60,184 nucleotides of DNA from Cyanosarcina radialis HA8281-LM2 (lineage in GTDB: Bacteria > Cyanobacteriota > Cyanobacteriia > Cyanobacteriales > CCAP-1448). Under the pieces are notes generated by a model. That model was not told the origin of the DNA. It worked only from the letters and a program-made list of their open reading frames with translations, and did no database searches. A program made the translations under genes and the position numbers. The stretch's first letter is position 1; the number at the start of each line of letters is the position of its first letter. Positions 5,784 through 8,906 of the stretch are shown here, piece after piece. Location of the stretch: NCBI GenBank assembly GCA_019359615.1, contig JAHHHA010000038.1, positions 1 through 60,184 on the forward strand, given 5' to 3'.

Positions 5784-8039
5784 TCACTCTCCGCCCTCTC
5801 CGCTCGCTCCCAGATCGATCGCTATAGTGAAGTAAAAAGTAGCACCCGCACCGGGCTGCGATTCTACCCAGATGCGGCCTTGGTGGCGCTCGATCGCCTT
5901 TTTGCTCATCGCCAAGCCGATGCCGTTGCCGGGATATTCTCCTGGTGGGTGAAGCCGCTGGAAGGGGATAAAGAGGCGATCGAACCATTGGGGATCGATG
6001 CCAATGCCATTATCTTTGACTGAGAATTGCCAGAAGCGATCGATCTGCTTTACTCCTATATGAATGGCTGGTGCTTGGTTGCTGCGGAACTTTATTGAGT
6101 TACTGATTAAGTTCTGGAATATTTGTCTTAATTGAGCGGCATCAGCCATGATGGTGGGTAAGGGATCGCGGGTAATGACAGCACTAGTTTCAGCGATCGG
6201 CTGTTGTAAGTTGGCTAAAGCAGCATTTAAAACCTTTTCTACCGCCGTCAGTTGAAATTTATGTTCCCTAGTGTTGACTTGCGAGTAAGTCAGCAAGTCA
6301 TCAATTAACGATTGCGTCTGCTTCACTCCAGCGATCGCTAAATAAATATATTCCTTGGCATTTTCATCTAGTCGATCTCCCTCGTACATCTCTAAAAGCC
6401 GCACGTAGCTAGATAAGAGATTTAATGGTTGCTGCAAATCGCTAGAACTAACAGCAGCTAGCTTCTCTAGCTCTGGCTTGGAAAGTTGTAAATCTCTAAC
6501 TAATTGGGCTAATTCTTCGGCTCGACGCAGAACCATCTTGACTAAAGTATTTCTCAAGTTCTCTGCGGCTCCAATTTCATAATCTTGCCAAGGTAAAGAT
6601 TGACCTTTGACAATTTCTTGCCATTTGGCAAACGAACCGCGAGGCGAAAGTCTGAGGCTACCTTCTGACTCGATTTTAGTGATAGCTTGATGGCGATCGC
6701 CAGCCCAACTTATAGTTTGAATTAGTTCTTGACGAAACCAAATAATATAGTTTTTCCAGTGTTCTGAGATCGAAATTAATAGCAAACCACTAGCAACATC
6801 TTTAATTTGTTCTGCTCCTGGATAAATACTAGAAAGCAAGTGAGTTTCAAATACTTCTGATTCCACATTATCTTCTAGCCAAGCAAGTAACCCTCCTAAT
6901 TCTGTTTCTGAGGGAGTCTCTCCTAGCAAAATACAATTTTCTTCTATGCAAATGACTGCTCCTGTAGCGTCAACTAAATCGAGCAATTTTGTTTGATTTT
7001 CAACTAATCCCTGCAATAAATTATTAGCCTTTGACAGAGATTCTAGTAATTCAAATTGAATGGTTTTAATTTCTACTCGCTTTTGAAACTCTTCATTAAC
7101 TTCTTTATTAGCTAATTCTGCTGACATCAAGCGTCCTAAAAAGCTAACAGCTTCTCTGGCTTCATAAGGAAGATATTTAGGTGAATAATGATGGCAAGAA
7201 ACTAGTCCCCAAAGTTGTTGTCGGTCGAGCAATGGCATCACTAAAGTAGCGATCGAACCCATGTTTTTCAGGTACTCCACATGACAGGGAGATACACCTC
7301 TAAGCACGGATGCACTTAAATTAATTGAATTTCCATCGTCCGACTGGCCGAGAATCTCAACTGGTAACAAATTTATATCGGGAATTAATCTGACATAACC
7401 TGACGAAAATATCGGTCGGCATTGCCTAGTATCTTCTTCTGGGTAGTGCAAGTCTAAAAATGATTCTAAATCTTTTCGTTTCTCTTCAGACATTACCCAG
7501 CCATGCCAATCGCGATCGAATTTATAAATCATTACTCGATCGAATCCAGTAAATTTTCGCACTTCTCGAACTGCCAGATCGCAAAGCGATTGAAGATTAG
7601 GTGCTGTTTGGAGCTTATGAGTTGAAGCTTTGACTAAATGATAATAACTTAAATAATCATTTTGCTGGCTTAGAGTTGAATATGGTTCTAGCTCTAGAAT
7701 TAATAAATTATCGACGTTGCGATGGATAATTCCATCCATTAAAACTTCTTCTCGTTCTTTTAATAATCTCAACTTAATAAAATTTTGATAGTTGAAATCA
7801 TCGTTCTTTATTAATTTTTCGATCGTCTTTATTTGAGAGCCACCTAACAATTTAATTAAATTTTCGCCTAGAAGCTCTTCAGGATTAATTCCCAAAATCG
7901 AAGTCGTGTTATTACTAATTCGTAAAATCTTGAAGTCAGGTTCTTCTAAAACCAAAAAAACGCCATGTGGTTGAATGTTACCGCACAAGTGAATAGGCTT
8001 GTCAAACAGATATTGCCAATCCAACTCTCGTAATTCCAT
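5784..8039 (-). CDS. Phytochrome-like sensor with kinase domain lacking the phospho-acceptor His
   Basis: 751 residues. Order: PAS (PIHLCGNIQPHG, about 15-120), GAF (about 130-310), PHY (about 320-500, with WFRQELIQTISW and the tongue motif SPRGSF), a dimerisation helix pair, and an HATPase domain with N box (QNLISNSIKF), DNGIGID and GNGIGLAM. The bilin-binding Cys is kept in SPCHVEYLKNMG (C252), the position used by cyanobacterial phytochromes. The usual DIP motif reads PEEDTRQ. In the H box, where relatives have ASHDLQEPL, this protein has SSSDLQQPL: Ser533 (6441-6443) stands in for His. Autophosphorylation by the normal route should be impossible. The ATG at 8039 has GTGGAG before it; another at 8066 has no ribosome site. 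Confidence 0.88.
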   Translation of the reverse strand: MELRELDWQYLFDKPIHLCGNIQPHGVFLVLEEPDFKILRISNNTTSILGINPEELLGENLIKLLGGSQIKTIEKLIKNDDFNYQNFIKLRLLKEREEVLMDGIIHRNVDNLLILELEPYSTLSQQNDYLSYYHLVKASTHKLQTAPNLQSLCDLAVREVRKFTGFDRVMIYKFDRDWHGWVMSEEKRKDLESFLDLHYPEEDTRQCRPIFSSGYVRLIPDINLLPVEILGQSDDGNSINLSASVLRGVSPCHVEYLKNMGSIATLVMPLLDRQQLWGLVSCHHYSPKYLPYEAREAVSFLGRLMSAELANKEVNEEFQKRVEIKTIQFELLESLSKANNLLQGLVENQTKLLDLVDATGAVICIEENCILLGETPSETELGGLLAWLEDNVESEVFETHLLSSIYPGAEQIKDVASGLLLISISEHWKNYIIWFRQELIQTISWAGDRHQAITKIESEGSLRLSPRGSFAKWQEIVKGQSLPWQDYEIGAAENLRNTLVKMVLRRAEELAQLVRDLQLSKPELEKLAAVSSSDLQQPLNLLSSYVRLLEMYEGDRLDENAKEYIYLAIAGVKQTQSLIDDLLTYSQVNTREHKFQLTAVEKVLNAALANLQQPIAETSAVITRDPLPTIMADAAQLRQIFQNLISNSIKFRSNQAPAIHIGVKQIDRFWQFSVKDNGIGIDPQWFDRLFIPFQRLHPPGEYPGNGIGLAMSKKAIERHQGRIWVESQPGAGATFYFTIAIDLGASGEGGE

Positions 8040-8084
8040 GGGTTTTCTCCACTTGCCAAACTGCATCTATATAAAGCTTTAAGA

Positions 8085-8906
8085 TTATTTTAGAGAAAGA
8101 TCTAATATTTTCCTTTCTCGCTCTGTCAGGCATTGCTTTTGTAACATCACTGGCAAGTAGGGAAAAATTTGAGAACATTTTTTTGAGAAAGCAGCAACCC
8201 ATTCTCTTAACCAGATGAGTTGAGTGCTGGTGACTTCTTCGTTAATTGCTCCCACAAATTTAATTTCGTCAGAGTCAGCAATTACAAACTTTTGCAACCA
8301 TTCAAATTGAGGACGAGTTGCTTGTAAATAATTGACGGCAAATTTTTTACCAATATATTGACTGCTGAACTTAATCAATCGGGCTAAGATATCAACTATT
8401 TCTTTGATTTGTACAATTTCTGGAATTTTGCGATCGATAAAAAGAGTGGCAGATTTATCGTTAAGAGAATTCGTTCTCGCCAAAGTAACTGTGGATTTAT
8501 CCGCCGTTCTTTTTTTAAGAAAAGTCGGTATTCGTACGTTATTTTGACTGAAGTAAATCAATAAATTAATTGCTTCATCTAAGCGATCGAGGATCGGCTT
8601 TAATTCCTCAATAGGTGGTAAATTATTAGTGTTTATTTCCGCCAGAACTGAAATTATTACATCGTCGTCTAACTTTAGAATATTGACCGTATATCCCATT
8701 ATTTCAAGCTGACAAGACTTCATATGGGGGTAAAATTCGACAAAATTTTGGATATCATTTTGCAAGTCTAACTGGAGAAGGGTTTTCTTTTGCCAGTCAA
8801 TAGATTCTGGATTTAAATATAAGTAAGTTTCTCCTCTGACCTGCGTTACGCCAATGCCTATGAATCCTGGGGAATTCCAAAAAATTTGAATAACTTCGAG
8901 TAACAT
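8085..8906 (-). CDS. Hypothetical protein co-oriented with the phytochrome
   Basis: 273 residues. I do not recognise the family. No signal peptide or membrane segment is seen; the composition is mixed alpha/beta, with amphipathic stretches (LEVIQIFWNSPG, KEIVDILARLIKF). The last quarter is Trp- and Lys-rich (QLIWLREWVAAFSKKCSQIF). The stop lies 45 bases upstream of the phytochrome start in the same direction, so the two are probably one transcript with this gene first. It may therefore be a partner or output of the photoreceptor, which matters because that receptor seems unable to phosphorylate itself. This is inference from position alone. Confidence 0.75.
   Translation of the reverse strand: MLLEVIQIFWNSPGFIGIGVTQVRGETYLYLNPESIDWQKKTLLQLDLQNDIQNFVEFYPHMKSCQLEIMGYTVNILKLDDDVIISVLAEINTNNLPPIEELKPILDRLDEAINLLIYFSQNNVRIPTFLKKRTADKSTVTLARTNSLNDKSATLFIDRKIPEIVQIKEIVDILARLIKFSSQYIGKKFAVNYLQATRPQFEWLQKFVIADSDEIKFVGAINEEVTSTQLIWLREWVAAFSKKCSQIFPYLPVMLQKQCLTERERKILDLSLK

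Follow-up and report, generated by a model that had tools for sequence, protein, structure and literature searches.

Can a phytochrome that has lost the phospho-acceptor of its histidine kinase still signal, and by what kind of output? The question is raised by a gene at 5784..8039 on the minus strand of the window, i.e., the whole stretch of 60,184 nucleotides from Cyanosarcina radialis HA8281-LM2 analyzed here. The open reading frame, Pfam and a structure match identify its product, P0001 (751 aa), as a Cph1-type phytochrome with the domain order PAS-GAF-PHY-HisKA-HATPase_c. The frame is open over all 751 codons; a Shine-Dalgarno sequence (GGAG) lies close 5' of the ATG at 8039, and a second in-frame ATG is found at 8066. 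Matches to the Pfam families PAS_2, GAF, PHY, HisKA, and HATPase_c each exceed the cut-off (E-values of 5.5e-8 for HisKA and 7.9e-25 for HATPase_c), and comparison with PDB sequences yields a match to 2vea (E 6.8e-124). The solved structures nearest to the sensor by sequence are FiDCB, followed by Cph1.

The sensor half is that of a bilin-binding photoreceptor. Both hallmarks named in an earlier note on this DNA, the bilin cysteine and the tongue motif, are confirmed: Cys252 (7284..7286, minus strand), within SPCHVEYL of the GAF domain, aligns with the bilin attachment cysteine of Cph1, and residues 465-470 read SPRGSF. P0001 hence combines the PAS-GAF-PHY arrangement, the GAF Cys-His pair and the PRxSF tongue by which Cph1-type sensors are recognized. 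It retains the known bilin and tongue residues except for the Ile and Pro of the DIP motif and one tongue Gly, and these exceptions are changes common to its clade-mates. While Cph1 and other cyanobacterial Cph1-type phytochromes share domain order, bilin cysteine, and tongue with P0001, the latter differs in three respects, namely a serine in the H box, the lack of a downstream Rcp1 and a GAF motif in which DT plus a deletion takes the place of DIP.

The H box of P0001 reads SSSDLQQPL, with Ser533 (codon AGC, 6441..6443, minus strand) at the position of the phospho-acceptor histidine of a functional HisKA domain. This replacement, proposed in the earlier note, is borne out by the codon and by an alignment that runs without gaps against relatives with an HDLQEP-type H box, which rules out a frameshift at this site. 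A sequencing slip is ruled out as well, as the note had argued, because at least two base changes separate AGC from a His codon and ten further conserved columns of the DHp domain are broken. A shifted H box, in which a nearby histidine would fit better, is precluded by the complete lack of histidines in residues 481-592; the next one, H593, is located just past the DHp hairpin. To place the substitution among relatives, P0001 was aligned with 174 phytochromes, which are the better-scoring, non-redundant matches fetched from cyanobacterial genomes (lower-scoring ones were left out) and remained of 230 matches after removal of ORFs outside 550-1160 aa and of near-duplicates. Relatives do not share the serine: a histidine occupies the H-box position in 172 of these 175 sequences, and a serine occurs in P0001 alone. 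The histidine is likewise present in all 18 other members of the DT clade, the group to which P0001 belongs (17 aligned rows and L033 from Hormoscilla, which stands outside the 175-row alignment as its gene is in three pieces).

The two remaining sequences without histidine are L028 (Tyr) and L029 (E). We take the E of L029 as an alignment artefact, as there is no comparable kinase stretch at this position. The phytochrome of L028 (genome G033) represents a second phytochrome H-box loss, with AAVAYEVTNPINF as compared to AGVAHEI-type sequences in four kin, and resembles DivL in its tyrosine. The ~4 kb that follow L028 and the ~5 kb that precede it (L263) contain no Rcp1-type regulator, and the kinase of L028 is presumably NtrB-like.

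Next to Ser533, the Asp at H+1 (Asp534) is kept, H+4 is Gln537 where relatives carry Glu, and three serines directly precede Asp534 (SSSD). The earlier note had listed serine phosphorylation and action in trans among the possible outputs. Accordingly, Ser533 or a neighboring serine could be phosphorylated, with P0001 acting as Ser kinase or as substrate, or P0001 could work in trans in a heterodimer with another histidine kinase. The SSSD stretch and the Ser/Thr kinase activity reported for plant phytochromes (PMC4525182, excerpt) fit the former version, for which nothing speaks in P0001 beyond the substitution itself, and no Ser kinase active site was found in its sequence. As for the latter version, the only other PHY-domain protein matched in the Cyanosarcina genome (6.5 Mb, 65 contigs), encoded on contig C5 and devoid of the GAF cysteine, has an intact H box (HDLKEP) and its own adjoining regulator. 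We thus regard either version as improbable.

Substitution of the histidine is accompanied by divergence of the entire DHp domain (residues 518-592; 6264..6488, minus strand). With 59 canonical relatives and the remaining clade members as reference, 39 DHp columns reach a conservation of at least 95%, and P0001 breaks 11 of them (N521K, F527L, Y529A, A531S, H533S, E537Q, R552Y, Y553E, F564Y, V569I, and M575T), as compared to 0-2 in 15 clade-mates. The corresponding counts are 0/8 for PAS (clade-mates 0-3), 4/41 for GAF (0-6), 7/40 for PHY (0-3), and 7/48 for CA (0-4). The excess of P0001 over its clade-mates therefore extends beyond DHp into PHY and CA, where it is smaller. Tip lengths of P0001 fitted per domain on a fixed tree are 1.40 for DHp and 0.62, 0.65, and 0.64 for PAS-GAF, PHY, and CA, respectively. 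At 2.21, the ratio of DHp to sensor length is the highest among the 26 of 43 tips with a sensor length >0.1 (next highest 1.46, median 0.63), an effect size that is rough because DHp comprises 75 columns and P0001 is one long tip of unsure placement in its clade.

The DHp substitutions are distributed unevenly over the types of column. P0001 keeps 26 of 29 hydrophobic DHp columns (27-29 in 17 clade-mates), but only 15 of 21 conserved polar ones, as compared to 19-21 in clade-mates and losses of at most three in 137 canonical sequences (rows picked by the letters SDIP). In CA, P0001 keeps 39/42 hydrophobic (vs. 40-41 of 41-43) and 29/34 conserved polar columns (vs. 29-32 of 33-34), and in the sensor its retention is similar to that of the others. 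From these patterns, the DHp domain looks like a retained helical bundle with an altered catalytic and docking face. A replaced phospho-acceptor together with a retained DHp-CA fold marks pseudokinases of the DivL-like or plant type, and P0001 shows both as far as its sequence can tell.

The HATPase_c domain (residues 633-739; 5823..6143, minus strand), as delimited by Pfam and the alignment, had been described as complete in the earlier note. This holds for the presence of the domain and for its N and G1 boxes, but not for the lid and the G2 box. The lid reads PPGEY where relatives have TRDEY or a near-identical sequence, and the G2 box PGNGIGL, with a T to N change, is found once among the 175 sequences. 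ATP binding by P0001 is plausible given the boxes that are kept, yet the lid and G2 changes may have abolished it.

The partner to which the phosphate would normally pass is missing too. In 71 of 74 HDLQEP-type relatives, the phytochrome gene is directly followed by a co-directional gene for an Rcp1-type response regulator (matches at E <1e-40 for 70 of them and at 2.8e-29 for L099); none directly follows at L059, L113, and L136. Beside the P0001 gene no Rcp1-type regulator was found, and the best match in the genome to the Rcp1 of Hormoscilla is 45% identical and adjoins a PAS-GAF histidine kinase, although an Rcp1 could lie on unassembled sequence as the genome is in 65 contigs. The cognate regulator of a functional HisKA protein is thus lacking both next to the gene and, in close form, among the assembled contigs. 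Further Rcp1-like regulators are encoded at C24:44238, C1:49881, and C5:18997. The C24 regulator was considered as an orphaned Rcp1 and rejected, because it belongs to the PAS-GAF kinase. Of the 18 DT-clade members besides P0001, 16 have the regulator directly behind the phytochrome. Both members without it belong to genus g42 and have no regulator for 8.1 kb (L241, genome G187) and 5.6 kb (L261, genome G051) downstream. As they keep the H-box histidine, absence of regulator linkage alone predicts little. These two phytochromes, with histidine but without an Rcp1-type regulator, are possible intermediates.

The Rcp1-like regulators encoded elsewhere in the genome leave room for a phytochrome that acts as a phosphatase only, i.e., one that does not autophosphorylate but dephosphorylates an unlinked phosphorylated regulator in a light-dependent manner, as does DrBphP. 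DrBphP is a phytochrome without detectable kinase activity; its E536 at H+4 matters for phosphatase activity, which requires ATP, and E536Q keeps this activity while T, N, and D at this position abolish it (PMC8292422, excerpt). Asp534, the glutamine at H+4, and the retained CA domain of P0001 all agree with this precedent, except that DrBphP has kept its H-box His532 where P0001 has serine. However, many conserved DHp columns outside the H box are altered as well, no close Rcp1 is left in the genome, and the lid and G2 changes may harm the ATP binding on which the activity depends. A phosphatase-only function is the main rival of the explanation preferred below, though clearly less likely than it.

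Somewhat less likely still, the locus could be in early decay, with the kinase half no longer under selection after loss of Rcp1 and the gene either vanishing or kept for its sensor half only. The missing partner regulator, the fast DHp domain, the altered lid and G2 box, and the additional broken columns of CA and PHY relative to clade-mates are all expected from decay. An intact frame of 751 codons is not, nor is a CA tip length no greater than that of the sensor or the retention of the named bilin and tongue residues to the same extent as in clade-mates. The variant is known from one genome only and a search for near relatives yielded none, which leaves decay at an early stage indistinguishable from relaxed constraint or positive selection.

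Our preferred explanation, which we hold with about even confidence, is that P0001 is a light-gated pseudokinase, a bilin-binding Cph1-type phytochrome with conformational output. Since both the H-box histidine and the receiving regulator are lost, P0001 probably signals by a change in shape, as is thought for plant phytochromes. Among the outputs suggested in the earlier note, conformational output is likewise the likeliest in view of the DHp-wide divergence and the lack of Rcp1. By analogy with known phytochromes, light switching in PAS-GAF-PHY would move the signaling helix and the DHp four-helix bundle. As its sequence shows, P0001 has no histidine at the H box on which a phosphate could be held, and our searches found no close cognate Rcp1-type regulator, adjoining or elsewhere in the genome. 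The DHp-CA body, perhaps with bound nucleotide, would then most likely serve as a light-dependent surface for dimerization and for docking of another protein.

Loss of the histidine is itself already known from plants and from bacterial pseudokinases such as DivL. In plant phytochromes it seems coupled to dissociation from the response regulator, while prokaryotic and fungal phytochromes are described as having a conserved histidine (PMC4525182, excerpt). The kinase-related domain of plant PHYB lacks the histidine, keeps the N, G1, F, and G2 boxes, and acts as a dimerization domain (PMC5712524, excerpt). P0001 resembles it in the lost histidine, the largely kept ATP-binding boxes, and the dissociated response regulator, but is of separate origin and has no PAS-PAS repeat. 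DivL of Caulobacter, with Tyr for His, shows neither kinase nor phosphatase activity (PMC4211667, excerpt). It is, like P0001, a bacterial DHp-CA protein with a replaced phospho-acceptor; unlike P0001, it reads DivK~P and is no phytochrome. No bacterial phytochrome without the H-box histidine was described in the titles and abstract beginnings of open-licence PubMed Central articles among the matches listed. A bacterial phytochrome that lacks histidine and regulator, yet retains its sensor and the greater part of the ATP-binding domain, would make the shift of plant phytochromes from histidine kinase output to protein binding accessible to ordinary biochemistry in a simple organism.

The sensor, too, sets P0001 and its clade-mates apart. 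In the GAF domain, the DIP motif of Cph1-type phytochromes is rewritten to DTRQC (residues 203-207; 7419..7433, minus strand), with a one-residue deletion in the aligned stretch HYPEEDT-RQCR and an additional cysteine, C207, a change that had escaped the earlier note. This D-T with deletion is common to 19 sequences, namely P0001, 17 aligned rows, and the Hormoscilla copy (loci other than that of P0001: L059, L155, L120-L125, L015, L016, L018, L115-L119, L260, and L033). The other 157 of the 175 rows have D[IVL][PG]; the 141 HDLQEP-type rows among them comprise 138 with DIP and three with DVP. With the DIP and H-box columns removed, the 17 of the 19 DT members that were included in a full-length tree (43 rows) cluster together (SH-aLRT 98; quick method, with a long-branch warning for P0001 and L059). 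So do the 14 members in a tree of the sensor alone (34 rows), calculated without the DIP columns (support 94/86, with a warning on L260). P0001 is a long branch, and its place within the clade is unsure. Changes absent from all 141 other HDLQEP-type rows further mark the clade, each shared by P0001: G248 (16 of 17 rows), V267 (17/17), S281 (15/17), and S306 (17/17). A tongue with WAG for WGG occurs in P0001 and 12 of the 17 DT rows and in none of the 141 others. The cysteine at D+4, C207 in P0001, is found in 16 of the 19 members and is replaced by Thr in three species of genus g34, so that it is not essential to the clade. Dual-Cys phytochromes and CBCRs are characterized by a second cysteine that makes a second thioether.

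In the Hormoscilla MAG, the DT phytochrome copy (L033:4986-7254) is spread over three reading frames and followed by Rcp1 at 7259; the split reflects either assembly errors or a pseudogene. An AlphaFold2 model of P0001 and the Hormoscilla pieces was discarded (mean pLDDT 38.7, pTM 0.25).

In a solved bacterial phytochrome, the DIP Asp and its motif are in contact with both the bilin water and the tongue (PMC11316798, excerpt), through which an altered photocycle in the DT clade is possible. On the other hand, Cph1 I208L still yields substantial Pfr (PMC12420706, excerpt), which speaks against a drastic effect of changes in the motif. A changed photocycle is thus a possibility by analogy, and the DT clade offers a natural test of the role of the DIP motif in phytochrome photoswitching. 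The DT variant was not described in titles and abstract beginnings of open-licence PubMed Central articles among the matches listed. It is tempting, though we put this forward only tentatively and with less confidence than the pseudokinase assignment, to view P0001 as a case in which a cyanobacterium independently repeated the exit of plant phytochromes from two-component signaling. Histidine and response regulator would have been lost and a kinase turned into a light-gated docking module, inside the DT clade, where the rewritten motif and pocket may also respond to different light.

The earlier note considered the product of the upstream gene the obvious partner. This gene encodes P0002 (273 aa; 8085..8906, minus strand), a member of a cyanobacterial family without match in Pfam and NCBIfam. 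It lies on the same strand as the phytochrome gene, 18 bases from the ATG at 8066 and 45 from the ATG at 8039, and the two are likely transcribed together. Orientation and proximity leave P0002 no more than a possible partner, as homologues adjoin a phytochrome only here among the loci fetched with flanks, many of which have a flank of only 1.5 kb. Among 388 genomes of the order, 80 encode homologues of P0002; they include its own genome, where we found two clear homologues and a weak one. Both clear homologues (contig C2, L133:6951-8568) are located beside genes for a ferredoxin, a TPR protein, and a Ser/Thr kinase. Within ~1.5 kb of 19 homologue loci of other genomes, a ferredoxin was found at seven, a TPR protein at seven, and a kinase at four; homologues at L066-L072 and L077 lie in clusters with ferredoxin, TPR protein, and Ser/Thr kinase. 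We take this neighborhood to resemble the slr0144-slr0152 photosystem II assembly operon of Synechocystis. At one further P0002 match, L080, pentapeptide repeats are N-terminal to the common C-terminal part.
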